A DNA stretch of 46,750 nucleotides from Flavobacteriales bacterium (lineage in GTDB: Bacteria; Bacteroidota; Bacteroidia; Flavobacteriales; Flavobacteriaceae): the NCBI GenBank assembly GCA_027023475.1, contig JALVVJ010000067.1:1-46750 (forward strand). Direction: 5' to 3'. The translations under genes and the position numbers were made by a program. This document shows positions 4,453-36,756 of this stretch, in pieces. How positions within the stretch are numbered: the first letter of the stretch is position 1; each line of letters starts with the position of its first letter. The notes below the pieces were generated by a model. The model had not been told where the DNA came from. It was given only the letters and a program-made list of their open reading frames with translations, and ran no database searches.

Positions 4453-7400
4453 ATGACCAAAAAACTACTCAGTTTCATGCTCTTGTTCACCGCAATGTGG
4501 ACTTGGGCCCAGGTTACCACATCCGAAATTCAAGGTGTGGTCAAAGATGCCAACGGCCAGCCACTCCCCGGCGCCGAAGTCAAAGTTACACACGAGCCCA
4601 CCGGTTCGGTGAGCGGTGCGGTAACCCAATTCAACGGGTCGTTTACCATAGCCAACCTGCGCGTAGGCGGGCCCTACACTTTGGAAGTAAAATTCATGGG
4701 CTACAAACCCGCGAAAGTGGAAAACATTTATCTGCAATTGGGTAAAACCTACAATGTGGATATCCAACTGGTCGAAGATTCGCAAACGCTCAAAGAAGTG
4801 GTGATTTCGGCCACTAAAAACCCCACATTCAACAACGACCGCACCGGCTCGGAAACCAACATCGACCGGCGCACCATCGAAGCGCTGCCGTCCATTAGCC
4901 GTTCGGCCGCCGACTATTACCGGCTGGAACCCTCGGCTTCCAACGGCTCCTTTGCCGGACGTAATGACCAGTTCAACAACTTTTCGCTCGACGGAACCAT
5001 TTTTAACAACCCCTTCGGGCTCGATGCCGCTACGCCCGGCGGTCAGTCCAATGCCCAACCCGTTTCGTTGGACGCCATCGACCAAATTCAAGTGGCCGTA
5101 GCGCCCTACGATGTAACGCTGTCGGGCTTTACGGGTGCATCGGTCAATGCCGTTACCAAAAGCGGAACCAACAAATTTCACGGCACCGTGTTCGGCTTTT
5201 TCCGCAACCAAGCCATGACCGGTAAAGTGTATTTGGGCGGTACCAAACTGGAACCCGAACTCAAACAAAAACAAGCCGGTTTCAGCTTGGGCGGCCCCAT
5301 CATCAAAAACAAATTGTTCTTCTTTGTCAACTACGAAATCGACGACCGTTCCGATTTGGGCTCCTTTTATGTGGCCAAACGTCCGGGCGTTTCGGGCGGA
5401 AACGTTTCTCGCGTGGAAGCCGCCGACCTTGACGAAGTGGCCAACCTGCTCAAATCCATCGGCTACGACCCGGGACCCTACGAAGGATATACCCACTACA
5501 CCTATTCGGACAAAGCGCTCCTGAAACTGGATTGGAACGCCTTCGAAGGAACGCGTATCACCTTTACCTACAACAACCTGCATGCCTGGAAAGACAACAA
5601 TGCACACCCCGAAGCCATCTTCCACCGCGGACCCGACCGCAGCGTGTTGCAATTCTACAAATCGGGATACCGCATTCACAACAACATCGATTCCTACCTC
5701 CTGGAAGCCAACTCCTCGTTTGCAGGTGGAAAAATTTCTAACAAACTCCAAGTGGGCTACACCCATTTCGACGATTTCCGCACGCCTTTTTCCGACCCCG
5801 CTCCGGTGATCAACATCGTCAAAGACGGTCAAATGTATATCGTGGCCGGACACGAACCTTTTTCCATCCATAACAGTTTGGACCAAAAGGTTTATCAATT
5901 CACCGACAACGTAAACTATTACATGGGCAACCATACTTTTACGGGCGGTATTTCGTTTGAAAAATTCAAATTCAACAACAGCTTCAACCTGTTCGGCTAC
6001 GGATTTGATATTTTCCAAACCTACACCATGCAGCAATTCCGCGACTCGGTGGCTTCGGGCTACATTCAAAGCCGTTTCGATGCCGCCCGCGCCGCCGACC
6101 AAGCCGGCAATTGGAACATAACCAAGCTGGAAGTGGGCCAATTCGGTGTTTATTTCCAAGACAAATGGGAAATGAACGAAAAAGTCCGCCTGACCTTCGG
6201 GTTGCGTGTAGACAAACCGCTCTATTTCAACACGTCCAAATATATCGAAGAAAAAATCGAACAAGCCGGCAACGACTACATTGCCGAAGACGTAACCTGG
6301 TATGACGAAAATGGTAACGAAGTCAAACTCTCGGCCCGCGACCTGCCCAAAGGCCAATTGATGTTTTCGCCGCGCTTCGGCTTCAACTGGGACGTGAATG
6401 GCGACAAAACCCTGCAAGTGCGCGGTGGTAGCGGTATCTTTACCGGCCGCTTGCCCTTCGTGTGGATTGGTAACCATGTGGCCAATGTGGGCCGTTGGTA
6501 TTTTACGCCCATTGCCAAAGACTTCAAATTCCCGCAAGTGTGGCGTACCAATGTGGGTGTGGACAAAAAATTCGAAAACGGCTATGTGATTTCGGCCGAC
6601 CTGGCCTTTACCAAAGACCTGAACGGCATGATGGTACGCAACTACGGACTTAAACCTCCGTCGGGAACGCTCAACAGCCCGGTGGACGACCGGCCCGTTT
6701 ACACCGCCGCCGACCATGCCCTTATGCCCGACTACGGCATTCCGGCCGACGCCTTCGTGTTTACCAACACCAAACTGGGTCATGCCCTCAACTTTACGGC
6801 CAAGGTGGAAAAAAGTTTCGAAAACAACCTGCGTTTCAGCTTGGCTTATAGCTTCCTGGATTCCTACGACGTAAACTCCATCGAAGCCGAAATCACCGGC
6901 GACGCCTTTATGCGTAACCCCGCTTTGGGTAATGTAAACCAAGACCGTCTCGCCCACTCCCTCTACGGCGACCGCCACCGCTTTGTGGGCTACGCCATGA
7001 AGTATTGGACCTACGGCAAAGACAACAAATGGAACACTTCGCTGGCCGCCTACTACGAATTTGCCCGCGGCGGACGATTCTCCTACACCTACTCGGGCGA
7101 CATCAACGGCGACGGTTCGCCGCTCAACGACCTGATTTACATTCCCACGGCCGACGAAATCAACCAAATGCACTTCGACACCGGCCAATACAACGAACAA
7201 CAACAACGCCTGGCGTTGAATTCGTTCATCGAACAAGATCCATACCTGCGCACCCACCGCGGCATGTATATGGAAAAATACGGCGCGTTGAGCCCTTGGC
7301 GTACCCGCATCGATGTCAAACTCACCCAGAGCTACAAAATCTCGGGTAGCCAACGCATTGAGTTTAACCTGAACATCCTTAACCTGCCCAACCTGCTGGA

Positions 7401-7575
7401 CGAAAATTGGGGCCACATCAAATTCCCCACCAACCGTCAGCCCATCGGTGTGCGTATCGACAGCAACGGCGAACCCATCTACTCCTTCGACCCCACCTTG
7501 AAGGAAAGCTTTACCAACGATTACAGCTTGGATTCGCGCTGGCAGTTGCAATTCGGTGTACGCTACCGGTTCTAA
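4453..7575 (+). CDS. Oar-like TonB-dependent outer-membrane receptor
   Basis: 1040 residues. A signal peptide (about 1-19, ending TWAQ) leads into a carboxypeptidase-regulatory-like beta-sandwich (about 24-110, with GVVKDANGQPLPGAEVKV and FMGYKP). A plug domain follows (about 125-240, including NAVTKSGTNKFHGTVFG) and then a long 22-strand-type barrel ending WQLQFGVRYRF with the usual terminal phenylalanine. The GTNKFHG and F-RN patterns mark the Oar-like group rather than SusC. Members import large ligands using the proton-motive force via TonB, or act in adhesion; no SusD partner or other substrate clue is adjacent. It has its own promoter and a clear terminator. An almost full-length open frame on the opposite strand is a coding-bias artefact. 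Confidence 0.9.
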   Translation: MTKKLLSFMLLFTAMWTWAQVTTSEIQGVVKDANGQPLPGAEVKVTHEPTGSVSGAVTQFNGSFTIANLRVGGPYTLEVKFMGYKPAKVENIYLQLGKTYNVDIQLVEDSQTLKEVVISATKNPTFNNDRTGSETNIDRRTIEALPSISRSAADYYRLEPSASNGSFAGRNDQFNNFSLDGTIFNNPFGLDAATPGGQSNAQPVSLDAIDQIQVAVAPYDVTLSGFTGASVNAVTKSGTNKFHGTVFGFFRNQAMTGKVYLGGTKLEPELKQKQAGFSLGGPIIKNKLFFFVNYEIDDRSDLGSFYVAKRPGVSGGNVSRVEAADLDEVANLLKSIGYDPGPYEGYTHYTYSDKALLKLDWNAFEGTRITFTYNNLHAWKDNNAHPEAIFHRGPDRSVLQFYKSGYRIHNNIDSYLLEANSSFAGGKISNKLQVGYTHFDDFRTPFSDPAPVINIVKDGQMYIVAGHEPFSIHNSLDQKVYQFTDNVNYYMGNHTFTGGISFEKFKFNNSFNLFGYGFDIFQTYTMQQFRDSVASGYIQSRFDAARAADQAGNWNITKLEVGQFGVYFQDKWEMNEKVRLTFGLRVDKPLYFNTSKYIEEKIEQAGNDYIAEDVTWYDENGNEVKLSARDLPKGQLMFSPRFGFNWDVNGDKTLQVRGGSGIFTGRLPFVWIGNHVANVGRWYFTPIAKDFKFPQVWRTNVGVDKKFENGYVISADLAFTKDLNGMMVRNYGLKPPSGTLNSPVDDRPVYTAADHALMPDYGIPADAFVFTNTKLGHALNFTAKVEKSFENNLRFSLAYSFLDSYDVNSIEAEITGDAFMRNPALGNVNQDRLAHSLYGDRHRFVGYAMKYWTYGKDNKWNTSLAAYYEFARGGRFSYTYSGDINGDGSPLNDLIYIPTADEINQMHFDTGQYNEQQQRLALNSFIEQDPYLRTHRGMYMEKYGALSPWRTRIDVKLTQSYKISGSQRIEFNLNILNLPNLLDENWGHIKFPTNRQPIGVRIDSNGEPIYSFDPTLKESFTNDYSLDSRWQLQFGVRYRF

Positions 7576-7631: not shown

Positions 7632-7815
7632 GGGCGCCTCCCGTACATCGCTTGCGCGATGTCGGGACCGGGCTGTCCGCTCCAATGGCCCTTGGGCAAA
7701 GCCGGTTTTTGTATAGCCGGCACCGGAGTCTTCTTGTCGAAGCGGCGAAGCCTCCGCCGCCGGCACAAAAAATGCGTCTTGCCCTGCGGGCCATAACCGC
7801 TCCCATCCCTGGCGC
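7632..7815 (-). repeat. AGCGG-box element, minus orientation
   Basis: Read on the minus strand it begins GCGCCAGGGATGGGAGCGG (from 7815) and ends GGGAGGCGCCC. The main stem is ATGGCCC/GGGCCAT here but ATGCGGC/GCCGCAT in the other copies, a compensatory change. The 3' hairpin ACATCGC-GCAA-GCGATGT has a GNRA loop; the 26 kb copy has GAAA at the same place. It lies in the convergent gap between the receptor gene's terminator and the stop of the regulator gene (7859). No gene fits in this 280-base gap. Confidence 0.8.
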
Positions 7816-7858
7816 AGAAAAAATCTTTTTGGTAACCCTACGCCATAACAAATATCGC

Positions 7859-9652
7859 TCACCCCAACGCATTCAAAAATTCCGTTAGATTTTCACCGTG
7901 TTTGAGTCCTAATTTCTTTCGAAGCCGGTAACGGGCTTTTCGCAAACTTTCGGGAGAAATATTCAATACGGCCGCCGCCTCTTTGATGTTCAGGTTTAAT
8001 TTTACAAGTGCGGCCAATTTAATATCACCCGGGGTCAGGTCAACGGATATTTCCCGCAGATTGGAATAAAAGTTTTTATTTACTTCTTCAAAATACATTT
8101 TAAACAATTCCCAATCTTTTTCCAAGTTCATATTTCTTTTGATTTGCCGTTGGAAGGAACGAATCTGTTTGCGCAGCGGCTCATCCACCTTCGGACAAAA
8201 CCGGGACAGTTCTTTGTCCATTTCCATCAAAAGTTTGTTTTTTTGGAGCATATTCATGGCATGCGTAACCAATTGTTTGTTCTGATATTCGTTTTTTTCG
8301 CGGAGTTTGGCCCGGAGGAGTTCACTTTTTTCCAATTCCGTTTCCACTTGTTGTTGTTTCAGTTTCCTTCGGTTAAGTACAAGTAACACGCTTACCAACA
8401 CAGATCCGATTAACACCAATAGAATAAAAAGAACAACGCTTGTTATGGTCTTTTGTTTGACCTTCAATGCTTTTATTTCATTATCGCTTCGCAATAGCAA
8501 TATTTCTTTTTCGCGTTTATCCAATTCATATTTATTCTGAACATTCGCCAGCTTTTCGGCTATTTGCAAATTGAATATGGAATCATTAAGCGCAATAAAG
8601 CGTTTTTGATTTTCCCAGGCCTTCCGGTAATCACCCCGCCGTGCATAATAATCCGAAAGCAGCGCATAAACATCTCTTTCCTTGATTTTGTTGGATGAGT
8701 TGCGGGCATTATGCAAGCTTTTTTCCAACATGACTTTCGCCTTGGAAAGTTTGTTACGTTTCAAATATAAATCGGCAAGATTATAATAGGCATCCGAAAG
8801 AAATTCAAAATTTTGAAATGCTTCACCAATTCGTGCGGCTTGCAAATAATTTTGTTCGGCACTGACATAATCACCCTTTTTCATCTTAATAATGCCGATA
8901 TTCAAAATCAATTCGGCAATATCCTTTTTGTTGCCCATTTTATTTCGCAGCCGCAATGCGTTTGAATAATAATAATACGCACTATCCAAATTGTTTTTTT
9001 TCTCATGAATAACGCCAATATTTTGAAGGCAACTGGCTATTCCGGCGGTATCCGATAATTTTTTCCTGATCGAAAGTGCCTTCATCCGGTAATCCAGACT
9101 TTTGTCCAATTGATTCATTTTGGAATAAACCGCGCCTATGTTATTTAGTAACAATGATTTATAGAACATCGATTTTTCTTTTGATAAATTATGAATACTA
9201 TCCTCAATGAGCACAAGCGAATGCAAATAGTTGGAAAGCGATTTTTCAAAATCGGCAATTCGCAAGTAAACAATGCCCAGTTGGTTGTAGGCCCGTGCTT
9301 CGAGCACGGGATTGTGCATGATTTGTGCCAATTTAAGGGCTTGATTAATATTTTGAATGGTGCTATCCAATCGTGATAAACCCATATTCGACTCCGACAG
9401 GTTCATGTATGCATAGTAAAGTTCCATCGTGTCATGCACTTTTTTCGCCGCTTGCCTTGCCCGTTGGGCCCAATGAAGGGCTTTTTGCATATCGCCGCGT
9501 TGCCAAAATTCCAAGGATAAATCATTGAAAAACCTGGGCAATTCTTTCTCGGTCTTCGATTTTATCAGCCGGGCAATGCTGTCATTTTCCGATGAATAAA
9601 CAACACCCGTGAATAACGGATATAAGATCAATAGCAAGAGTATCCTTTTCAT
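7859..9652 (-). CDS. TPR, membrane-anchored HTH transcriptional regulator
   Basis: 597 residues in the order signal peptide (about 1-20), a run of tetratricopeptide repeats through residue ~370 (for example ALNNIGAVYSKMNQLDKSLDY-type units), one transmembrane helix (about 397-422, TITSVVLFILLVLIGSVLV), a charged coiled coil, and a C-terminal LuxR-like helix-turn-helix (last ~60 residues, LTPGDIKLAALVKLNLNIKE..ESLRKARYRLRKKLGL). This layout is a known Bacteroidota class in which extracytoplasmic TPRs are coupled to a cytoplasmic DNA-binding domain. The gene is divergent from the fibre operon across 283 bases, so control of that operon is a reasonable inference. Own -7 box at 9669. Confidence 0.85.
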   Translation of the reverse strand: MKRILLLLILYPLFTGVVYSSENDSIARLIKSKTEKELPRFFNDLSLEFWQRGDMQKALHWAQRARQAAKKVHDTMELYYAYMNLSESNMGLSRLDSTIQNINQALKLAQIMHNPVLEARAYNQLGIVYLRIADFEKSLSNYLHSLVLIEDSIHNLSKEKSMFYKSLLLNNIGAVYSKMNQLDKSLDYRMKALSIRKKLSDTAGIASCLQNIGVIHEKKNNLDSAYYYYSNALRLRNKMGNKKDIAELILNIGIIKMKKGDYVSAEQNYLQAARIGEAFQNFEFLSDAYYNLADLYLKRNKLSKAKVMLEKSLHNARNSSNKIKERDVYALLSDYYARRGDYRKAWENQKRFIALNDSIFNLQIAEKLANVQNKYELDKREKEILLLRSDNEIKALKVKQKTITSVVLFILLVLIGSVLVSVLLVLNRRKLKQQQVETELEKSELLRAKLREKNEYQNKQLVTHAMNMLQKNKLLMEMDKELSRFCPKVDEPLRKQIRSFQRQIKRNMNLEKDWELFKMYFEEVNKNFYSNLREISVDLTPGDIKLAALVKLNLNIKEAAAVLNISPESLRKARYRLRKKLGLKHGENLTEFLNALG

Positions 9653-9676: not shown

Positions 9677-9836
9677 ACAAATCTACACGCTCCATTTGGC
9701 CAACTTTGCAATAATGAAAATCAAGCCCATTGTAATGTTCTCATATACATTTATTTATCGAAATCCAAAAACAAAAATATCCACATAAAATCCACATATT
9801 TTTTGTGCTTTGTCCACTTTTTTTACACATCATTTG

Positions 9837-9935: not shown

Positions 9936-12188
9936 ATGAAAACAAAAAGCATTTTTACCCTATTGGTCATGTTGATAACCGGTTTGGGCTATGCCCAAAA
10001 CGGCTTCAACTACAAAGCACTGATTTCCGAAAACGGAAGCACGCTGTCCAACCATAGCATAAATATGCGATTCAGCATCCTGGATGCCGGAAACACGGTG
10101 GTTTACAGCGAAACCCATACCGGAACCACCGATGCCAATGGCATTGTGGTTTTTGTGATTGGCGAAGGCACGGTGGAGTCGGGTGATTTTACAAGCATTG
10201 ATTGGAGTGCCGGTGATTATTTTCTGCAAGTGGAATTGGACACCGGTAGCGGTTATCAGGATTTCGGAACAACGGCGTTCAAGTATGTGCCTTTTGCCAA
10301 ATATGCCGGCACATCGGGCGGCATAACACCGGACGCCATCAAATTGGACGATTTGAGCGATGCCCGTTCCGATAGCAATGGTTCATCTATCTATATCGGT
10401 ATGGATGCAGGATACAATGATGATCAAACCAATAATTCCAATGTGGGGATCGGATTTGGGGCATTATATGCCAATACCACAGGCGAAAGGAATTCCGCCC
10501 TTGGATATAAGTCCATGCATTTCAACACTACGGGTTCGGGCAATACGGCCTTGGGTCGTAAGTCTTTATATGCCAACACAACGGGCGCCTACAATACGGC
10601 CGTAGGAAAACGTGCCTTGTATTCCAACACCCTCGGACATTCCAATGTGGCTTTGGGTGTGCACGCATTGTATCGCAATACCGACCGGAGCAACCTGGTT
10701 GCAGTTGGAGATTCGGCCTTGTATAATAATGGAATAGGTGTTTCGGCTTCTTATCATGCCGGATACAATACGGCCATAGGTTCCAAAGCGCTATATGCCA
10801 ACACCACCGGTTATGCCAATTCGGCAACCGGTTATAGAACATTATTTTCCAACACAACCGGCTATTCCAATACGGCAAATGGTGCTGATGCGCTATATTC
10901 CAACACCACAGGATACCATAATACCGCTATCGGGGCAACGAGCTTAAATAGCAACACTACCGGACGACAAAATACTGCTACCGGAAGTGGGGCATTACGT
11001 TATAATACAACCGGAAGTGAAAATAATGCCAACGGTTTCGGTGCTTTGCATCACAATACCACAGGATTTGCCAATTCCGCCTTTGGCAATTATTCGCTTT
11101 ATCAAAACACTTCCGGTAATTATAACACTTCTCTTGGCTTTCGTTCTTTATACAACAACTCCACCGGACATAGCAATATTGCCATAGGAATACGGGCTTT
11201 GTATCACAATACCAACAGGGACAATTTGGTAGCCATTGGCGATTCGGCTTTGTTTTACAATGGTGGTGGTGTTTCACAATATTATCATGCCTCATATAAC
11301 ACGGCCATAGGATCAAAAGCACTTTATGCCAATACTACCGGATACTCAAATACAGCCACGGGATACTGGGCCTTGTTTTCCAATACAACAGGATATGGCA
11401 ATACCGCCAACGGATATCAAGCGTTGTATTCAAATACGGAAGGTTATAAAAACACGGCATACGGCAGAAATTCACTTTATTCCAATACAACAGGTGATAA
11501 AAATACGGCTATGGGTTTTTATGCATTGTATTCCAATACTACGGCTGAAATGAATACGGCAGTTGGTTACCAAAGTTTATTTGCAAATACCACGGGTTCA
11601 TCAAACACGGCACTGGGTTATGGCGCATTTTATACCGGATCAAATTATTCCAACTCAATGGCTTTGGGTAGTTATTCGTCCATTACGGCAAATAACCAAG
11701 TCCGCATTGGAAACGCATCGGTAAGTAGCATCGGCGGGTTTACCGACTGGACCAATGTCTCGGATGCACGTTTCAAAAAAGATGTCCGGGAAAACGTAAT
11801 CGGGTTGCCTTTTATCCTAAAACTTCGTCCCGTTACATACCGCTTGGATATGGATGCCATTGCCAAATTCACCAAAACACCGGACAGCTTACGCCTGCCC
11901 GGAAGTGAAAAGCTGAAAGCCGCCGAACTACAAACCGGCTTTATTGCACAAGAAGTGGAACAAGCCGCCCGAAGCGTGGGTTACGATTTCCACGGCGTGG
12001 ATGCGCCCAAAAATCCCAATGATTACTACGGACTTCGCTATGCCGAATTTGTAGTGCCCTTGGTTAAAGCCGTGCAAGAGCAGCAGGAGCAGATTGAACA
12101 ATTGAAAAAAGAAAATCAAGCCCTAAAAACCACCTTGCAAAAAATGCAAGCGCAATTGGAAGCCATTCAGCAAAAGTTGAATGATTAG
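9936..12188 (+). CDS. Tail-fibre-like surface protein with S74 self-cleaving chaperone (22 repeats)
   Basis: 750 residues. The signal peptide is MKTKSIFTLLVMLITGLGYA. A conserved N-terminal beta domain (about 22-140, NGFNYKALISENG...FAKYAGTSGG) precedes exactly 22 units of a 17-residue repeat, consensus NTTGYxNTAxGYxALYS (DNA 10473-11636). Units 6 and 16 carry a 7-residue insertion, each preceded by a variant GDSAL unit. The C-terminus is a peptidase S74 / intramolecular chaperone domain starting at Ser609 (SDARFKKDV), then a coiled coil. In phage fibres this domain trimerises the fibre and cuts itself off just before that Ser. No T9SS sorting domain is present. Start chosen because an upstream ATG (9810) lies before the promoter. 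Probably a secreted trimeric fibre; the ligand is unknown. Confidence 0.88.
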   Translation: MKTKSIFTLLVMLITGLGYAQNGFNYKALISENGSTLSNHSINMRFSILDAGNTVVYSETHTGTTDANGIVVFVIGEGTVESGDFTSIDWSAGDYFLQVELDTGSGYQDFGTTAFKYVPFAKYAGTSGGITPDAIKLDDLSDARSDSNGSSIYIGMDAGYNDDQTNNSNVGIGFGALYANTTGERNSALGYKSMHFNTTGSGNTALGRKSLYANTTGAYNTAVGKRALYSNTLGHSNVALGVHALYRNTDRSNLVAVGDSALYNNGIGVSASYHAGYNTAIGSKALYANTTGYANSATGYRTLFSNTTGYSNTANGADALYSNTTGYHNTAIGATSLNSNTTGRQNTATGSGALRYNTTGSENNANGFGALHHNTTGFANSAFGNYSLYQNTSGNYNTSLGFRSLYNNSTGHSNIAIGIRALYHNTNRDNLVAIGDSALFYNGGGVSQYYHASYNTAIGSKALYANTTGYSNTATGYWALFSNTTGYGNTANGYQALYSNTEGYKNTAYGRNSLYSNTTGDKNTAMGFYALYSNTTAEMNTAVGYQSLFANTTGSSNTALGYGAFYTGSNYSNSMALGSYSSITANNQVRIGNASVSSIGGFTDWTNVSDARFKKDVRENVIGLPFILKLRPVTYRLDMDAIAKFTKTPDSLRLPGSEKLKAAELQTGFIAQEVEQAARSVGYDFHGVDAPKNPNDYYGLRYAEFVVPLVKAVQEQQEQIEQLKKENQALKTTLQKMQAQLEAIQQKLND

Positions 12189-12241
12189 ATATAGTTCTCT
12201 CGTATTAACAGTATAGAAAATAAATAGTAAAAATTAGTGAT

Positions 12242-12721
12242 ATGAAAAATCTTCTATTCGTCGCTTTTGTTTTGGCCGTATTTGGTCTCCAAGCGCAAAC
12301 GACTATCAAAAAAAGCAGCATTTCCACCTCGGGTGGCACAATGACCTCGGGCAACCAAGAAGTCATTTTTACCGTCGGCGAAACCAATGTTCAAGAAACC
12401 GACACGGGCAATGTCCATTTGTCCGAAGGTTTTATCGGGCCCGATATTGCCGAAGCGCTCGGCATTGCCGATTACGGGATTTTATCCGGTATTACGATTT
12501 ACCCGAATCCCGTAAGTGATATATTAAGTGTCCGGTTGTCACGGAACAGCCATTACGAGTTTTACCTTTTCAACCTGGAAGGTAAGCAAATGCTATATCG
12601 CCAAAGTCAAGACGCAAACCAAACTTTCGACATCGGATTTTTAACTGCCGGGAGTTATATATTGATTGTGATTGACAGGGATAGCAAACGCAAAAAAGCG
12701 TTTAAAATCATTAAAAAATAA
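12242..12721 (+). CDS. Small T9SS-sorted secreted protein
   Basis: 159 residues: signal peptide (about 1-19, ending LQAQ), a short region of about 60 residues (SSISTSGGTMTSGNQEVIFTVGE...LSEGFIGPD), then a type A T9SS sorting domain (about 84-159) opening ITIYPNPVSDILSV and closing with a lysine-rich KAFKIIKK. The cargo part is too small for an enzyme and resembles short proteins that accompany S74 fibre genes in Bacteroidota. It lies 53 bases after one fibre gene and 61 bases before the other, with no terminator between, so all three are probably one transcript. An accessory or anchoring role for the fibres is an inference from position only. Confidence 0.85.
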   Translation: MKNLLFVAFVLAVFGLQAQTTIKKSSISTSGGTMTSGNQEVIFTVGETNVQETDTGNVHLSEGFIGPDIAEALGIADYGILSGITIYPNPVSDILSVRLSRNSHYEFYLFNLEGKQMLYRQSQDANQTFDIGFLTAGSYILIVIDRDSKRKKAFKIIKK

Positions 12722-12782
12722 TACGCTGGAAAGATACCTGTTTGTTTGAAAACCAACTTATTCATCACCAAAAAATACCATT

Positions 12783-15305
12783 ATGAAAACAACATCGAAT
12801 TTCAAAAATGGACTCATAAGCATCATAGCTTTATTGATCACAAGTTTTGGTTTCGCCCAAAACGGATTCAACTACAAAGCGTTGATTTCCGAAAACGGTA
12901 CCACGCTTTCAAACCAAAACGTGAATATGCGGTTTAGTATTCTTGATGCAGGCAACACGGTGGTTTACAGCGAAACCCATACCGGAAGCACCGATGCCAA
13001 TGGCATTGTGGTTTTTGTGATTGGCGAAGGCACGGTGGTGTCGGGTGATTTTGCAAGCATTGATTGGAGTGACGGTGATTACTTCCTGCACGTGGAATTG
13101 GACACCGGTAGCGGTTATCAGGATTTCGGAACAACGGCGTTCAAGTATGTGCCTTTTGCCAAATATGCCGGCACATCAGGCGGCATAACACCGGACGCCA
13201 TCAAATTGGACGATTTGAGTGATGCCCGTTCCGACAATGATGGTTCGGATGACGGTTCTTCAATTTTTATTGGTATTGGCGCCGGTGCCAATGACGACCA
13301 AACGAATAATCATAATATTGGCATCGGTCAAAATGCCTTGCATTCCAATATATCGGGGAATTTTAATACCGCAATAGGAAGCGATGCCCTGTATCGTAAT
13401 ACAGTAGGGTATCATAATAGCGCTATGGGTTTTACTGCGCTATTTAATAATACCGACGGATTTTATAATTCGGCTTTTGGAAGTTTGGCGCTGCACAATA
13501 CTATAACGGGGCATAGAAACACTGCCACCGGAGCGGGTGCGCTTTATTCCAATACCACCGGTTATAGAAACACCGCATCCGGGAGCGGGGCGCTTCTGGA
13601 CAATACCACCGGATACGGGAATACCGCCTTTGGGCAAGCGGCACTAGCCAACAACACCACAGGCCATTCCAATGTTGCCGTTGGCATTAAAGCACTAAAC
13701 TATAACACCGACCGCAGTGAACTTGTAGCCATTGGTGATTCGGCTTTGTTTAATAATGGCGTAGGTGCGTCTTCTACGGTTCATGCGACCAAGAATACCG
13801 CTATCGGCTCCAAAGCCCTGTTTTCCAACACTACGGGACATAGTAATACCGCCACCGGACACCATGCCCTGTATGCTAACAGCACCGGTTATCTTAACAC
13901 GGCCAACGGAAGCGGAACCTTGGCAAGCAATACCACCGGAAGTTTCAATACCGCCATGGGGAGCGACGCCCTGCATGATAATACCACGGGAGCATATAAT
14001 ACGGCTTATGGCAGGTCGGCCTTACAAAACAATACCACCGGAAGGCAGAACACGGCTACCGGTTACCGGGCGTTGTATTCAAACACTACGGGGTCGTATA
14101 ATGTTGCCAGCGGATACCGGGCATTAAATGATAACACTACCGGAAATGCCAATATAGCCATAGGTGTTGGGGCTTTGTTCCATAATACCGACCGAAGCAA
14201 CCTGGTAGCCATAGGCGATTCGGCATTGTTTCACAACGGGCAAGGCGTTAGCGATATTTATGATGCCGTATTGAATACAGCTATTGGTTCAAAAGCCCTA
14301 TACACCAATAGAACGGGACATGATAATACCGCTATCGGTTATAAATCAATGTATTCTAATACAAGTGGATATTGGAATACGGCTAATGGAAATGTCGCCT
14401 TATATTCCAATACAACAGGTCATTATAACGTAGCGGTTGGGACCGGCTCACTGCGTAGTAATACCACCGGAATAGCCAATACGGCAGTTGGTGTCGAGGC
14501 CTTATATGATAATACTACCGGCTCCGGTAATAATGTTTTCGGAGTATCATGCATGCATAGTAATACAACCGGCCATAATAACACGGCAATGGGAGAATGG
14601 GCATTAATTGATAATACTACCGGAAGCTACAATGCGGCCTTTGGGTCGTTTGCACTGGAACGTAATGTCTCGGGGGATTATAACACAGCAATAGGTTATC
14701 AAGCATTTTCTAACGGAACAAATTATTCCAATTCCACCGCCCTTGGCTTTGAAGCAAGCATTTCCGCCAGCAATCAAGTGCGTATCGGGAATAGCTCGGT
14801 TACCAGCATCGGCGGGTATGCCAACTGGACGAATGTTTCGGATGCACGTTTCAAAAAAGATGTCCAAGAAAACGTAGTAGGGTTGCCTTTTATCCTGAAA
14901 CTGCGTCCGGTAACCTACCACTTGGATATGGATGCCATTGCCAAATTCACCAAAACACCGGACAGCTTACGCCTGCCCGGAAGTGAAAAACTGAAAGCCG
15001 CCGAACTGCAAACCGGCTTTATCGCCCAAGAAGTGGAACAAGCCGCCCGAAGCGTGGGTTTCGACTTCCACGGTGTGGATGCGCCCAAAAATCCCAATGA
15101 TTACTACGGTCTTCGTTATGCGGAGTTTGTCGTTCCGCTTGTCAAAGCCGTGCAAGAGCAACAAGAAATAATAGAACGGCAAAAAGCAAAATTAGAAGAC
15201 CAGGAAATGCGCCTGCAACAGCAAGCCGAACAATTGGCCCGGCAAGCCGAGGAACTGAAAAGCTTGAAAAAACTGGTTAACCGGTTATTGGAAAGTCAAA
15301 AATAA
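12783..15305 (+). CDS. Second tail-fibre-like protein with S74 chaperone (26 repeats)
   Basis: 840 residues, paralogous to the protein at 9936. A signal peptide (about 1-25, ending FGFAQ) precedes an almost identical N-terminal domain. Then come 26 units of the 17-residue repeat (DNA 13347-14714); units 9 and 18 have the 7-residue insertion, each after an NTDRS.LVAIGDSALF unit. The S74 domain starts at Ser686 (SDARFKKDV). The terminal coiled coil is longer than in the first paralogue and rich in Gln/Glu. The ends of the two genes are much more alike at DNA level than the repeat tracts, suggesting duplication followed by gene conversion or selection on the ends. Probably forms a homotrimer, or a mixed fibre with its neighbour. 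Confidence 0.88.
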   Translation: MKTTSNFKNGLISIIALLITSFGFAQNGFNYKALISENGTTLSNQNVNMRFSILDAGNTVVYSETHTGSTDANGIVVFVIGEGTVVSGDFASIDWSDGDYFLHVELDTGSGYQDFGTTAFKYVPFAKYAGTSGGITPDAIKLDDLSDARSDNDGSDDGSSIFIGIGAGANDDQTNNHNIGIGQNALHSNISGNFNTAIGSDALYRNTVGYHNSAMGFTALFNNTDGFYNSAFGSLALHNTITGHRNTATGAGALYSNTTGYRNTASGSGALLDNTTGYGNTAFGQAALANNTTGHSNVAVGIKALNYNTDRSELVAIGDSALFNNGVGASSTVHATKNTAIGSKALFSNTTGHSNTATGHHALYANSTGYLNTANGSGTLASNTTGSFNTAMGSDALHDNTTGAYNTAYGRSALQNNTTGRQNTATGYRALYSNTTGSYNVASGYRALNDNTTGNANIAIGVGALFHNTDRSNLVAIGDSALFHNGQGVSDIYDAVLNTAIGSKALYTNRTGHDNTAIGYKSMYSNTSGYWNTANGNVALYSNTTGHYNVAVGTGSLRSNTTGIANTAVGVEALYDNTTGSGNNVFGVSCMHSNTTGHNNTAMGEWALIDNTTGSYNAAFGSFALERNVSGDYNTAIGYQAFSNGTNYSNSTALGFEASISASNQVRIGNSSVTSIGGYANWTNVSDARFKKDVQENVVGLPFILKLRPVTYHLDMDAIAKFTKTPDSLRLPGSEKLKAAELQTGFIAQEVEQAARSVGFDFHGVDAPKNPNDYYGLRYAEFVVPLVKAVQEQQEIIERQKAKLEDQEMRLQQQAEQLARQAEELKSLKKLVNRLLESQK

Positions 15306-15380
15306 TTTGCTACGGCAACAGGATAAGTGCCATAGAATTATGGGTAGAAATCTGGACATCCGGGTACATTAAAAAAAACC

Positions 15381-15705
15381 GCGCCAGGGATGGGAGCGGT
15401 TATGCGGCGCCGGGGCGCGGCCTGGTTTGCTGCCGGCGAGCAGGCTCCGAGGAATCGAGGAGACATCGCAGCCGGCCCTTAGCAAACCGCCGCGGCCCAA
15501 GCCGCATTTAAGCGGACAGCCCGACGGCGCCACGTGAGGAACGGCCGACGGGAGCGTGCTCCGTCATCGCGAAGCGGCGGCCGATGCACCGTAGGTGCTC
15601 CGAACGTGAGCGAGCGAAGCGAGTCCCGCCTCATGAATGCGCCGCGGTGCGAGCAAAGTGAAGCAACGCGGATTGCATGAATGAGGGCGGGGCGCCGGGG
15701 CGCCC
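15381..15705 (+). repeat. AGCGG-box element, long version
   Basis: 325 bases. It starts GCGCCAGGGATGGGAGCGG and the stem ATGCGGC/GCCGCAT brackets a 100-base hairpin-rich insert (GGTTTGCT...AGCAAACC). Then come AAGCGGACAGCCCGA and a 3' part enlarged by several hairpins, ending GGGGCGCCC. It fills the convergent gap between the second fibre gene and rnhA, ending 8 bases before the rnhA stop. Apart from it, the 400-base gap holds no gene. Confidence 0.8.
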
Positions 15706-26279: not shown

Positions 26280-29200
26280 TTAACGCCGCAGGAACCGGCT
26301 ATGAAAAACGCCGCGGTTGGTTTGTAATTCCAGTATATAAGCGCCACGTGGCAGGTTGTGCACGTCGATATCTAAACGGGTTTCGGGTTGGGCAAAATGC
26401 TTTTCGGATAAAATTTTCCCGCTTAAATCCAGGATGCGGTAATGCTCAACCACCGTTTGACGTCGTGCCCGGACAAATAGCCGGCCGTCACTGGGATTGG
26501 GAAAGAGGTTCAAATAGGTTTGCCAAGCTGTTTTGTCTGTGCCCAGTTGCATATCCACTTGCAAGTTATCCAGCATAACACCTTCATAGTGAACCGAATA
26601 ATCGGAAGCCATCACAAAACGCAAATAAACCCGCGGTTCGCCGGCCAAGAAATCCAAGCTATGGCTATAATGACGGATTTGGCTGTCGTAACCCGTCCAT
26701 TGGGCGCCTTGGCAAGCACCTTGCACCGTACTGCTGTTGTACCAATCCGGGTCGGCACTGCTACCCAATACGGTCCAAGTGGAACCGTCGGTGGAATATT
26801 CCACATAAAACGCATCCCAATCCTGCTCGATGTCGAAGGCCATATCAAAGCCCAAAGTAGCCGATGTTACTTGCGAAAAATCGAGGCACGGCACATACAA
26901 GTGAGCCGTGGTTTGGTCGGGATAGGTTCCCGATGCATTGGTACAATATGCGTATGTTCCCGAAGCCGCCGCATTCAATACCGAACCCGAAGGATGGGCA
27001 CGTTCCCAAAGGTTGCCCGTTGGAAGGGTTTGGGTGAGTAGTTCGTGGGATGGTGATTCGAAATCGTAGCTAAACGATGCGCTCTCGCTTTTATTGACCG
27101 TAAGCGTATATTCCAACGTATTGTTTTGCGTGTTTTGGTCGGCGGCATATTGCACCTGGATTTGTACCGGAACCACACCTAAACTCACCGCATTGTTCAG
27201 TGTAATGGTCAGGGATAGCGTATCGCCACTGTGTAAAGTTCCGTTCCAGGAAGCGTTGCCTGTTTCGCCGTTGATGTCCCAGTTGTAGGAAAAATGCGTT
27301 ATGTCGTTGTTTCCGTTATTTATTACCCTGAAATCCACATCTTGCAAAGTTCCGCAATACATACCGGCATCGCCGTTCATAGCAATTTTGGCATCATCGT
27401 CGGGATGATAGGCAGGAACACCGGTTACCCAAGTGCTACGGCCATAGGTACCCACCCACAACTTTCCTTCATCGCCGGCCAATTCCAAATCCATACAAAA
27501 GGTATGCGGCAAGTTGTTGTGAAATGCTTCCCAATTGTTGCCTGAGGTCTTGCGGTAAACACCTATGTCGTTGGCCAAATACAAGGTCTCGTTGGGGCTG
27601 TAAGGATGATATACCAAATCATGGATGCGGATGTCGGCCGGCAGGCCGGCGGAAATGTCCGTCCAAGTAGATTCGTCGGTGCTTTCATACACGTGGCTTC
27701 CGGCGGCCACCCAAATTTTTCCGTTTTGCGGATTGAGGGTAACGGCGCGCACATTGTAGGAAAAATCGTGTAGTTGTGAGAAATTTGCGCCTGCATCGGT
27801 ACTTTTATACAAAACGGTGTTTACGGCAGCATAAATTACATTGGAATTTGTTGGGTGACAATAAAGCATATCGATATTACCCGAAAAGGATGAGCCGGTT
27901 ACCGACTGCCATCCGCTACCGGTTAGTTTATAAACCTTGGTAAATCCGGCATAAAGCGTTCCGTCGGCGCCTATGGCCAAAGGGGTTACCCAATTGCCAT
28001 AGGATGGCCCGCTGTAACCGCCAACTGTGGTTAGACCTCCGTTTCGGGTTACATTGAGATAGATTCCGTAGTAAATAAAACTGTATGCTGTTTGGGGATC
28101 GGAGGGGTTAACGGCATTATCCATACCATCGGCACCGTGATAAATATTCCAATGCTCATCGGGCTGCTTGGCAATGCCGCCGTTGTCTTGAAGGCCGCCG
28201 TAAATATGTTCGGAATGAGCATCTTTGTAAGCCGAAATGCGATAAAACATACTTATGGCCAAATCATCGTTTTTGTTGACAAAATGAGCGCCGTTGTCCG
28301 TGCTCAAATAGACTCCTCCATCGGAACCTACCACCAATGTGTTCCCGTAGTATTCCAAATAATGAATGTCGGCATGTGTATAGCGATCATCCATAGTGGC
28401 CCAATCGTTCCACACGGAAAAAGATGCACCGCCATTGGTGGATTTCCAAAGATTTAACTCTCCAAGAAAAATAATATTGGGGTCGGTATCGGAAACGGTC
28501 ATGGCCAAATCATACCAGGTTTGTTGCGACCCGTCCAAAGCGTCATTAGCCGCCGTCCGCGTAAATGAGGAACCGCTGTTTGTGGACTTGTAAAGCCCGA
28601 CAAAGCTGCTGCCGTTGGTGGCTAAAACATAAACGTTGTTAGGTGCCGCAGGCGTTACATCCATCACATAACGCGAAACATTGGACGATGAAGGAAGGCC
28701 CGAACTAACCATGGAAAAACTGTCGCCACCATTTGTTGAACGATAAAACCGAGTATTGGAAACGGCATACAAGTAATTGAAATTACCGGGTTTCATTCGC
28801 ATTTCACGAATTCCGGCATTGAGCGTTAGCGTCCAATTTTGCCCGCCGTTGGTGGATTTGTAAACACCGTCGCTCGAAGCAAAAACAATTTCGTTGCTAT
28901 TTGAGGGATTGATGATAATTTGCGACACATAATCCAGGGAATTTATCGAAGGCGTTAGGTTGGTCCAAGTTTGACCGCCGTCGGTAGAGCGGTAAACACC
29001 ATAGGAAGGCGTAACGCGGGCATCGTCGTCGCCCGTGCCGATGTAAATCGTATTGTGATCGGAAGGATCAAGCGCTATGGCCGACACTCCCAATGTGGGC
29101 AAATCATCGGTGAGTGGAGTAAAAGTTTGTCCGCCGTCGGTGGATTTCCATAATCCGCCGGCAGGCGCGCCCACATAGATGATTTGCGGATTTTGGTCGT

Positions 29201-29600
29201 CGATTAGCACAACATTCACCCGTCCTTTTCCTTCGTATCCGGCCGTCGTGTAGGGTGTGGTTCCCGAAAGTTGCCAATTGCTGTCGTCGGTGGTCGGGCG
29301 GGCCGCGGCTTGCACGGCATCGCGCCAAGCACGGGCCGGATTAACATTCATATATCCGTAATCCTCCCAAATATATTTCCAACGCTCGTAGGGCTTAACG
29401 CCACTTCCTTTAACCAAGCGATTGTGCTGTTCCCAATAGGCATCCGAGCTTCGGATAATATGCAAAATACGGTCGCCGTATTGTGTATTTCCGGCAGGGC
29501 GCTGAGCTCTCTGGGAATCATGAAAAGGATCCCATTGGGCTTGCATCTCAAACCCATATAACCCAAAAACCAGTAATAGTAAACAGAGATATTTTTTCAT
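26280..29600 (-). CDS. T9SS-sorted BNR/sortilin-like beta-propeller protein
   Basis: 1106 residues. The signal peptide (about 1-21, MKKYLCLLLLVFGLYGF...) precedes many Asp-box/BNR repeats (STDGGQTWTNL, STNGGQNWTL, STDAGANFSQL and others, about residues 100-720). These are typical of sialidase- or VPS10-like propellers and xyloglucanase relatives. A CARDB-like beta domain (about 740-840) and a jellyroll-like region with FDMAFDIEQDWDAFYVEYSTDGSTW (about 850-1010) follow, then a type A sorting domain opening LNLFPNPSDGRLFV. No catalytic residues are apparent, so adhesion or binding is as likely as hydrolysis. Start 29600 is chosen because a -7 box (29629-29622) overlaps the upstream ATG at 29624. 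Confidence 0.87.
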   Translation of the reverse strand: MKKYLCLLLLVFGLYGFEMQAQWDPFHDSQRAQRPAGNTQYGDRILHIIRSSDAYWEQHNRLVKGSGVKPYERWKYIWEDYGYMNVNPARAWRDAVQAAARPTTDDSNWQLSGTTPYTTAGYEGKGRVNVVLIDDQNPQIIYVGAPAGGLWKSTDGGQTFTPLTDDLPTLGVSAIALDPSDHNTIYIGTGDDDARVTPSYGVYRSTDGGQTWTNLTPSINSLDYVSQIIINPSNSNEIVFASSDGVYKSTNGGQNWTLTLNAGIREMRMKPGNFNYLYAVSNTRFYRSTNGGDSFSMVSSGLPSSSNVSRYVMDVTPAAPNNVYVLATNGSSFVGLYKSTNSGSSFTRTAANDALDGSQQTWYDLAMTVSDTDPNIIFLGELNLWKSTNGGASFSVWNDWATMDDRYTHADIHYLEYYGNTLVVGSDGGVYLSTDNGAHFVNKNDDLAISMFYRISAYKDAHSEHIYGGLQDNGGIAKQPDEHWNIYHGADGMDNAVNPSDPQTAYSFIYYGIYLNVTRNGGLTTVGGYSGPSYGNWVTPLAIGADGTLYAGFTKVYKLTGSGWQSVTGSSFSGNIDMLYCHPTNSNVIYAAVNTVLYKSTDAGANFSQLHDFSYNVRAVTLNPQNGKIWVAAGSHVYESTDESTWTDISAGLPADIRIHDLVYHPYSPNETLYLANDIGVYRKTSGNNWEAFHNNLPHTFCMDLELAGDEGKLWVGTYGRSTWVTGVPAYHPDDDAKIAMNGDAGMYCGTLQDVDFRVINNGNNDITHFSYNWDINGETGNASWNGTLHSGDTLSLTITLNNAVSLGVVPVQIQVQYAADQNTQNNTLEYTLTVNKSESASFSYDFESPSHELLTQTLPTGNLWERAHPSGSVLNAAASGTYAYCTNASGTYPDQTTAHLYVPCLDFSQVTSATLGFDMAFDIEQDWDAFYVEYSTDGSTWTVLGSSADPDWYNSSTVQGACQGAQWTGYDSQIRHYSHSLDFLAGEPRVYLRFVMASDYSVHYEGVMLDNLQVDMQLGTDKTAWQTYLNLFPNPSDGRLFVRARRQTVVEHYRILDLSGKILSEKHFAQPETRLDIDVHNLPRGAYILELQTNRGVFHSRFLRR

Positions 29601-29621
29601 TATATCAATTTTTGTGTTGCC

Positions 29622-29629
29622 CAAAGCTA
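29622..29629 (-). promoter_or_regulatory. -7 promoter box of the BNR-repeat protein gene
   Basis: Minus-strand TAGCTTTG, 21 bases before the ATG at 29600; it rules out the in-frame ATG at 29624. Confidence 0.6.
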
Positions 29630-35379: not shown

Positions 35380-36756
35380 ATGCGCTTTATACATTTATTG
35401 CTTTCCATGCTTTGGCTAATCACCCCCCTCAGTGCCCAAAACCTTTACAACGAACTTTTCGATCAAAGCGGCGGTATTACCAACGGCTATGGGAGTTGGG
35501 GTTCATATAACTACGTGAGGGAACCCGGCTTGGATGTGAGCGGAAAAGGAACCATCACTTTTTATCATCCCGATGCCAATGCTGTCCCACGACCCACCGT
35601 GTTTTTTATTTCGGGTTGGGGACAAACCTATGAATCCTACGACCGGTTTTTCAAGTATGTGGCAAGCTTGGGATATAATTTGGTCAATATCTACAACGAA
35701 AACCCGGGGAGTATTCATCAAAGCTATCAAAACTCACTGGATATGATGGATTTGGCCGTTTCGACCTACGGCCAATGGCTCGACACAAGCCGCGTAGCCC
35801 TTATGGGTCATTCCTACGGCGGGGGCTCAACCATTTGGCTTGGCACGCACGTTTTCGACCCCAACGGCCGTAATTGGGGAACCAACGGACGTTTCATTAT
35901 GACTTTTGCACCCTGGCTTTCGTTTTTGGTAACCGATAATGATTTGCTAAACTATCCGCCCGATGTAAAACTCCTTATCTTGCAGAGCTACGATGATTGG
36001 CATTTGGGAACCGACCGCTACAATACCGACCCGCGTGCCACCCGCGCCGTGTATGAATTGATTAATATTCCCGATGCCGACAAGGATTATATCACCGTGT
36101 TTTCCGACACCGTTACTGCACATCAATATACCTACAACGGATATACCTTTTTTTACCAGGCCAATCACCGTTTTTGCTACACCGACCTAATAGACGGACG
36201 CTACGACCCTTATGACCGGCTTGATGTTTACGGACCCAATCGCCTGTTCCACGCCTTGGCCGATTTGGTATTTGAAAACAATCCGGCCGCTCGCAATATA
36301 GCCCTGGGTAACGGAAGCTCTGAACAAAAAAATATGGGTATGCTGCCCGATTTGGCAGTTACGGATTATTATGTTACAGTGCGGCCCGACACGATGTTTT
36401 TATATCGCTGCGCCGAAGACCGTCCGGGCACTTGGGGTGACCCCGATATTTGGAAATTGCAGGCCTATTGCGACGATGCCAATGGCGACGGAGTTATTGA
36501 CAACTTATCCACCGAAAAATCATTCTTGAACCAAGTGCGACTGTATCCCAATTCGGCCAGTGAATTCGTGATTATCGACCCGGGATTTCAAAACGAATAC
36601 CATTACACCCTTTTGGACCTCAACGGTAATGAAATTCTGCACGGACACGCCCGCACTTCGCATATGATTATGCTAAAAAACCTGCCGGCGGGCGTCTATC
36701 AAATCGGAATCCGAATCAAGGATCAGCAACGTTATTTCCGGTTGGTCATAAAATAA
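35380..36756 (+). CDS. T9SS-sorted alpha/beta hydrolase, cutinase/dienelactone-hydrolase-like
   Basis: 458 residues: signal peptide (1-19), an alpha/beta hydrolase domain (about 45-330) and a T9SS type A sorting domain (about 385-458, with VRLYPNSASEFVII). The nucleophile elbow GHSYGGG places Ser145 as catalytic. Plausible partners are Asp205 or Asp206 in LQSYDDWHLG and His248 in TVTAHQY. Before the elbow, VFFISGWGQTYESYDRFFKYVASLGYNLV resembles the oxyanion region of cutinase-like and PETase-like enzymes. Substrate is unknown; secretion through T9SS suggests a polymer or ester outside the cell. A shared terminator separates it from the convergent dehydrogenase gene. Confidence 0.82.
   Translation: MRFIHLLLSMLWLITPLSAQNLYNELFDQSGGITNGYGSWGSYNYVREPGLDVSGKGTITFYHPDANAVPRPTVFFISGWGQTYESYDRFFKYVASLGYNLVNIYNENPGSIHQSYQNSLDMMDLAVSTYGQWLDTSRVALMGHSYGGGSTIWLGTHVFDPNGRNWGTNGRFIMTFAPWLSFLVTDNDLLNYPPDVKLLILQSYDDWHLGTDRYNTDPRATRAVYELINIPDADKDYITVFSDTVTAHQYTYNGYTFFYQANHRFCYTDLIDGRYDPYDRLDVYGPNRLFHALADLVFENNPAARNIALGNGSSEQKNMGMLPDLAVTDYYVTVRPDTMFLYRCAEDRPGTWGDPDIWKLQAYCDDANGDGVIDNLSTEKSFLNQVRLYPNSASEFVIIDPGFQNEYHYTLLDLNGNEILHGHARTSHMIMLKNLPAGVYQIGIRIKDQQRYFRLVIK

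Follow-up and report, generated by a model that had tools for sequence, protein, structure and literature searches.

The locus described here raises a question of export and attachment, namely how two long fibre proteins, neither of which matches the T9SS sorting domain (Por_Secre_tail) in Pfam or NCBIfam, relate to a small protein encoded between them that carries such a domain. We have analysed it within a stretch of 46,750 nucleotides from a Flavobacteriales bacterium, called the window below, and in relatives from the genus and the phylum. We will argue, with slightly better than even confidence, that the two fibres, A and B, are MAT-like, S74-processed and probably trimeric, that the small T9SS protein is their partner, and that the GDSAL cassettes of the fibres are modules of the shaft.

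Fibre A has 750 residues (positions 9936-12188, plus strand) and fibre B 840 (12783-15305, plus strand; AlphaFold model m3aa97c278dd5), and according to the ORFs and Pfam matches both follow the same plan, with a signal peptide recognised by eye, an N-domain, a repeat shaft, an S74 domain and a coiled coil. The signal peptide of A starts at the ATG at 9936; the mechanical ORF begins further upstream, with a TTG at 9810. The small T9SS protein, of 159 residues, is encoded between the two fibres (12242-12721, plus strand), and the gene of a 597-residue TPR protein, a candidate regulator, diverges from that of fibre A (7859-9652, minus strand; TPR_12, 5.2e-26). As judged from the ORF list and Pfam, the four genes are arranged as the earlier note had described. 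Its description of the locus as a self-contained system is, however, too strong: the same genome has 11 N-domain places and 9 S74 places on several contigs, and the layout of the window is one variant of a widespread pair of a small T9SS gene and a fibre gene.

Some features of the surroundings are recorded here for completeness. On either side of the four-gene locus stands a copy of a dispersed, intergenic repeat, about 150-240 bp long (7660-7821 and 15374-15612); the two are apparently in opposite orientation, and tens of copies are present in the sister genome G008. An open frame of 1028 residues (4465-7551, minus strand) runs antisense to a TonB-dependent receptor gene and is most likely a codon-usage shadow rather than a gene. 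Larger proteins with T9SS sorting domains are encoded away from the fibres, at 26280-29624 (minus strand) and 35380-36756 (plus strand).

The N-domain stands right behind the signal peptide and comprises about 106 residues in both fibres (10002-10319 in A and 12864-13181 in B, plus strand). All 29 N-domains that were aligned, that of B included, match the NCBIfam family NF053851 (Bdello_MAT_N), which bears the name 'mosaic adhesive trimer family chimeric fiber protein', at E <= 0.01. The match of A is partial, covering profile positions 23-79 of 162 with an E-value of 5.8e-9, and scores 35.9 bits against a curated cut-off of 60. Judged by its sequence, the N-domain is a homologue of the one in the MAT fibres of Bdellovibrio, which is a statement of relationship and not of formal membership, and A and B are on the same grounds a known kind of fibre. 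In the report on the MAT fibres of Bdellovibrio bacteriovorus (PMC10769870), S74 with the SDxxxK motif is counted in 13 of 21 members; a beta-rich N-domain of about 130 residues after the signal peptide is a trait of the superfamily. The likeness to these fibres comprises the signal peptide, an N-domain directly behind it that is related by profile, the long shaft, the S74 domain with SDxxxK, the large paralogous family and the varied ends. The fibres of the window differ in belonging to Bacteroidota, in their 17-residue shaft repeats with GDSAL cassettes, in their pairing with a small T9SS protein, and in that the N-domain of A scores under the curated MAT threshold. Elsewhere in the same order, the 1.92-Mb one-contig genome G035 has 29 S74 matches, in frames of up to 2139 residues; N-domain ORFs stand in rows of 4 and 6 on the two of its stretches that were read (L110 and L111), where no CTD ORF is present.

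The S74 domains reported by the earlier note are above the Pfam cut-off in both proteins (PF13884), at residues 609-679 of A (11760-11972, plus strand; 5.6e-9) and 686-755 of B (14838-15047, plus strand; 8.9e-9). Each starts at the serine of an S-D-A-R-F-K stretch (Ser609 and Ser686), fitting the motif S-D-x-x-x-K that is reported for self-cleaving S74 fibres in PMC10769870. Cleavage is predicted before these two serines, and from the motif we consider that A and B probably trim themselves by means of S74.

The single-chain AlphaFold model of B has a mean pLDDT of 78, with most of the shaft at 80-92, and a pTM of 0.53. Every 17-residue unit forms one coil with two short strands in it, and the model fits a solenoid shaft, with the proviso that the fold predicted from one chain may be wrong for an obligate trimer. 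Foldseek with the whole model of B lists the MyRF ICA structure 7dc3_B (prob 1.00, TMt 0.62, E 0.047) and the K1F S74 structure 3gw6 (prob 0.98, E 0.22); neither of the two models searched has a Foldseek match at E <= 0.001, and phmmer of B against the PDB gives no match up to E 1. The best VIA-align match is 3gq8 (Z 16.1, 259 aligned, rmsd 3.2) and, in the other listing, 7akv (Z 11.3, 154 aligned, rmsd 2.5); we take these matches to be phage tailspikes and other right-handed beta-helix proteins. A YadA-type head is absent from the VIA-align matches listed, which for single-chain models proves nothing. Five models of the cassette have mean pLDDT values from 60.8 to 82.3.

The best argument for a trimer is an indirect one. 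Collagen, S74 and Peptidase_G2 typically belong to trimeric proteins. Among nine further N-domain proteins, S74 forms the end of three, collagen repeats are present in one (2.9e-109), a borderline Peptidase_G2 match (24.9 of 25 bits) in another and DUF7452 in another, and three gave no match; on these grounds A and B are probably trimeric fibres. The protein with the collagen triple-helix repeats, of 964 residues and with a MAT-like N-domain, is encoded at L187:1650-4541, and a small CTD protein is encoded directly upstream of it. The trimeric autotransporter adhesins of the YadA type are also fibres with a repeat solenoid, but the fibres of the window end in S74 and a coiled coil, and the Pfam matches of A and B up to E 1 include no membrane anchor domain at the C-terminus.

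Shaft repeats and S74 are likewise shared with phage tail spikes and fibres, such as those of phrog_4636 and the K1F endosialidase with its chaperone (3gw6), and the genes could accordingly be the tail fibres of a decayed prophage or tailocin-like particle. Both proteins match the PHROG tail spike phrog_4636 (1.2e-101 for A and 3.5e-113 for B), and 113 phage records match B, all with less than 60% identity. Among the 25 of these 113 that are listed, however, the matches start at residue 171 or later and leave the N-domain out. The fibres of the window are moreover encoded by genes of the cell, have signal peptides and lie beside a T9SS gene, their paralogues are found on many contigs, and the neighbouring ORFs up to about 20 kb read by eye as a TonB-dependent receptor, RNase HI, SDR, GNAT and MnmE, the receptor being the one for which a family search was made. 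For these reasons a prophage origin was rejected, and we regard it as very improbable.

The shafts (10440-11654 in A and 13314-14732 in B, plus strand) consist of 22 and 26 in-phase units of 17 residues, in agreement with the counts of the earlier note, and our parse adds a divergent last unit to each. The spacing is 17 throughout except for two values of 24 in each protein. The 24-residue units, as that note had them, are unit 6 (residue 254; 10695-10766) and unit 16 (residue 431; 11226-11297) in A, and unit 9 (residue 314; 13722-13793) and unit 18 (residue 474; 14202-14273) in B, all on the plus strand, and each is preceded by a unit with NT(D/N)R. In the 44 ordinary units of A and B, a set that omits the GDSAL and last units, N1 and G5 are invariant, N12 occurs in 43 and L9 in 41, which is conservation far beyond chance.

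The suggestion that each fibre has exactly two GDSAL modules does not hold as a rule, since relatives have 0, 1, 2 or 6, the six being in a single fibre of 67 units on L084. The bands are nevertheless kept as a module, in the form of a three-unit cassette that is conserved in relatives: a unit ending in NT(D/N)R is followed by (L/I)(V/I)A(I/V)GDSAL with seven extra residues, and then by an NTA(V/I)GSKAL unit. Across 22 aligned cassettes, out of 25 distinct ones (one each of L010, L077 and L082 was omitted), D, S and A never vary and K almost never does. In 909 distinct unit triplets, near-identical orthologues included, D-S/T stands at positions 6-7 in 23 of the 30 units whose next unit follows at 24 residues, compared to 6 of the 797 with the next at 17, and S-K is found in the following unit in 22 of 30 and 5 of 797 cases, respectively. 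The parts of the cassette can separate, since seven of the 30 long-spaced units lack D-S/T and six units with D-S/T are spaced normally. A fixed number of units between successive modules was also considered and had to be rejected, the distance being 10 units in A, 9 in B, 11 in L008 and L083, 10 in L071, and 10, 16, 9, 9 and 7 in L084. Over offsets 1-13, the mean unit-to-unit DNA identity peaks at offset 10 in A (0.590) and 9 in B (0.570), and segmental duplication may therefore explain the spacing.

As to the role of the cassette, every GDSAL unit of A and B contains D-S-A, which agrees with the sequon for O-glycosylation in Bacteroidota, D(S/T)(A/I/L/V/M/T), published in PMC12871550. The cassettes could thus be mainly O-glycosylation sites that place a glycan at fixed heights on each fibre. 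The match to the published sequon speaks for this, as does the invariance of D, S and A in the aligned cassettes, and of the 52 sequons in 50 shafts (near-identical orthologues included) 37 fall at GDSAL. Shuffled shafts give 42 in all, however, so that the sequons are concentrated at GDSAL rather than in excess over the shafts; the sequon by itself leaves the linked R, the 7-residue insertion and the GSKAL unexplained, and the long-spacing units that lack D-S/T do not fit it. We therefore hold a role mainly in glycosylation to be conceivable, short of probable. Our own reading of the pattern is that the cassette would be a displayed functional patch, which is possibly glycosylated. A direct binding site, as put forward in the earlier note, may be an alternative, putative reading, while the branching point mentioned there finds no support.

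The small protein has a signal peptide, recognised by eye, a conserved stretch of about 60 residues, and the sorting domain, which matches PF18962 (2e-9) and TIGR04183 (5.5e-10), both above cut-off. In 14 members, the conserved stretch has no Pfam match at E <= 0.1. The association with the fibres, which had been proposed from the window, is borne out in the genus: over nine genomes, 27 of the 32 strong matches to the small protein lie within 3 kb of an N-domain, compared to 0.84 expected for random placement, and all 27 are on the same strand as the N-domain, as read from the tables. Four of the other five places were read: L100 lies next to an S74 fibre that is truncated where the contig stops, L148 and L149 are at or near a contig end, and the contig stretch of L150 shows no fibre. 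This count leaves out 33 of 65 T9SS matches, with E above 5.3e-10 and mostly to the sorting domain alone, and one of 54 N-domain rows, which was the second piece of one place. One of the dropped matches, G008:C25, is full length and weak, and is also beside an N-domain.

The pairing extends beyond the genus. Of 148 genomes from the phylum, 31, from 20 of 83 genera, contain the N-domain. The narrow profile of the small protein matches five of the 148 genomes, own genome included, and all six of its places outside the genus have an adjoining N-domain ORF. With the sorting domain as the mark, 14 of 20 stretches outside the genus have a small CTD ORF directly upstream of the fibre and in the same orientation (frames of 161-205 residues, E 3e-15 to 4e-4). 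In two of the remaining six, a larger CTD ORF lies directly downstream of the fibre, and the other four contain no CTD ORF. Twenty control stretches contain no small CTD ORF (Fisher 3e-6) and two CTD ORFs of any size (1135 and 1549 residues). The 20 fibre stretches represent 22 of the 45 N-domain places outside own genome and come from 18 genomes; the positives include six of nine families, with 7 of the 14 from one family (f35), and the controls were set at round coordinates in six genomes, namely five of the 18 and G176. The small proteins from outside the genus are 17-29% identical to that of the window. In own genome, where SprA is present, there are 45 CTD places, and a comparison by reading puts 6 of the 8 in frames below 200 residues next to N-domain fibres, whereas none of the 37 others is within 3 kb of one. 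Two contigs of this genome, C197 and C17, overlap by 136 bases at 99.3% (L041:1-136 and L042:4503-4638) and are probably parts of a single additional locus comprising one T9SS partner and several fibres.

The TPR gene is a less regular companion. Of the TPR-HTH regulator described in the earlier note, the TPR part is clear, while the HTH is weak only (Sigma70_r4_2, 0.0048, below cut-off). The gene diverges from a fibre at six loci (the window, L040, L076, L078, L084 and L141), with the order at L141 being TPR-HTH, fibre and small T9SS protein as in the window, but this association is not constant, and it is less frequent than that of the T9SS protein; at L045 and L134, homologues are near fibres in other orientations. 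At L078:1005-3253, in G008, the homologue beside the fibre is broken, giving two ORFs; the portions matching the TPR gene of the window are separated by about 380 extra bases.

If the S74 end is cut off as predicted, the C-termini of the fibres could not keep a T9SS sorting domain. Among the fetched stretches, some ORFs of which are cut by the stretch ends, there is no ORF that matches both the N-domain and the CTD profiles. With a C-terminus that would be shed and no CTD on the fibres examined, the small protein is most likely a dedicated partner, serving as their T9SS carrier or anchor. In the mechanism that we propose, the fibres would be exported by Sec and would then trimerise, with S74 helping the trimer to fold before it cuts itself off. 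The N-domain would sit at the cell, and the shaft, a solenoid of 17-residue coils, would extend from it. The small protein would bind the N-domain that the fibres share, and its CTD would take them through the T9SS, tether them outside the outer membrane, or both. The GDSAL cassettes would be modules that can be repeated along the shaft, and each would bring charged residues, an additional loop and a sequon for O-glycosylation to a set height. The T9SS is described in PMC9251779 as moving folded proteins and requiring a folded C-terminal domain. The T9SS type B substrates with PorP-like anchors (SprB-SprF, PMC9143113) are similar in that a large adhesin has a dedicated anchoring partner; in the window, by contrast, the large protein has no CTD and the sorting domain is on the small partner.

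The small protein could instead be an independent surface protein that is merely co-expressed with the fibres, for example a second adhesin, the fibres then using another route. Adjacency does not show binding, and a small T9SS gene is missing from the 3 kb around 23 of the 53 N-domain places in the genus, many of the contigs being short. Some of the 14 CTD matches in the phylum are also weak, which counts against the partner model. On the other hand, the pair recurs with different shafts on the N-domain (S74, collagen and Peptidase_G2-like), and it is the small CTD frames of own genome, six of eight, that are beside fibres. We find an independent protein rather unlikely. The places without a small gene, in the genus and in six of the 20 phylum stretches, imply for the partner model that the protein acts in trans or is not always needed. 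A more specific version of that model, to which we give a tentative place at best, is that pre-folded trimeric MAT-like fibres are exported piggyback on the small CTD protein, which later becomes their anchor, and that their bodies recombine between sites. The fibre bodies would here be cassettes exchanged between expression sites via the conserved N-domain and S74 ends.

An exchange of this kind is suggested by a comparison with G008. At the protein level A and B are 91.5% identical in the N-domain and 96% in S74, compared to 62% in the shaft, 52% in the signal peptide and 44% in the coiled-coil tail. In contig C72 of G008, the upstream region is B-type (0.91 vs 0.44), the body A-type (0.92-1.00) and the tail again B-type (0.96-0.99). 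The reverse combination is seen over contigs C169 and C166, which have 127 identical bases in common: here a B-type body stands between an upstream region (0.72 vs 0.47) and a tail (0.87 vs 0.38) that are both A-type. We consider it fairly probable from these sequences that fibre bodies were reciprocally exchanged, with crossovers in the N-domain and the S74 region. An artefact of metagenome assembly at these similar parts is a possibility to be reckoned with: the crossovers lie where A and B are most alike and share exact stretches of 86 and 69 bp, the coverage of JALWYR010000072.1, taken as contig C72, is about 4, and both assemblies are fragmented (197 and about 280 contigs). The flanks, furthermore, are mostly 89-91% identical instead of about 97% as elsewhere, which a simple exchange does not explain and which means that G008 may hold diverged extra copies of the locus. 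Against an artefact, the pattern is reciprocal over three contigs, and four other fibre loci are collinear between the two genomes at a DNA identity of 96.6-98.8%. The two flanks of the window fall on different contigs of G008, namely C238, where a larger CTD protein and a different fibre are beside the TonB gene, and C205, on whose stretch no fibre was found; the locus is thus not conserved in place.

Taken together, these are new features on a known fibre: a widely conserved T9SS-tagged neighbour, a sequon-bearing cassette and, possibly, cassette exchange. The neighbour in particular looks new as a part of MAT-like fibre systems. Our literature search found nothing on point among the papers listed, either on T9SS cargo lacking a CTD or on S74 and tail-fibre proteins in connection with the T9SS or Bacteroidota; passages of PMC10994853 have nothing on CTD-less cargo. 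If the piggyback export applies, the T9SS can export complexes with the signal on the small subunit only. For the fibres themselves, the surface element that holds the Bdellovibrio MAT N-domain is said in PMC10769870 to await identification. The small gene is a direct candidate for this role in Bacteroidota, and the question of how the fibre N-domain is anchored becomes testable in culturable relatives.
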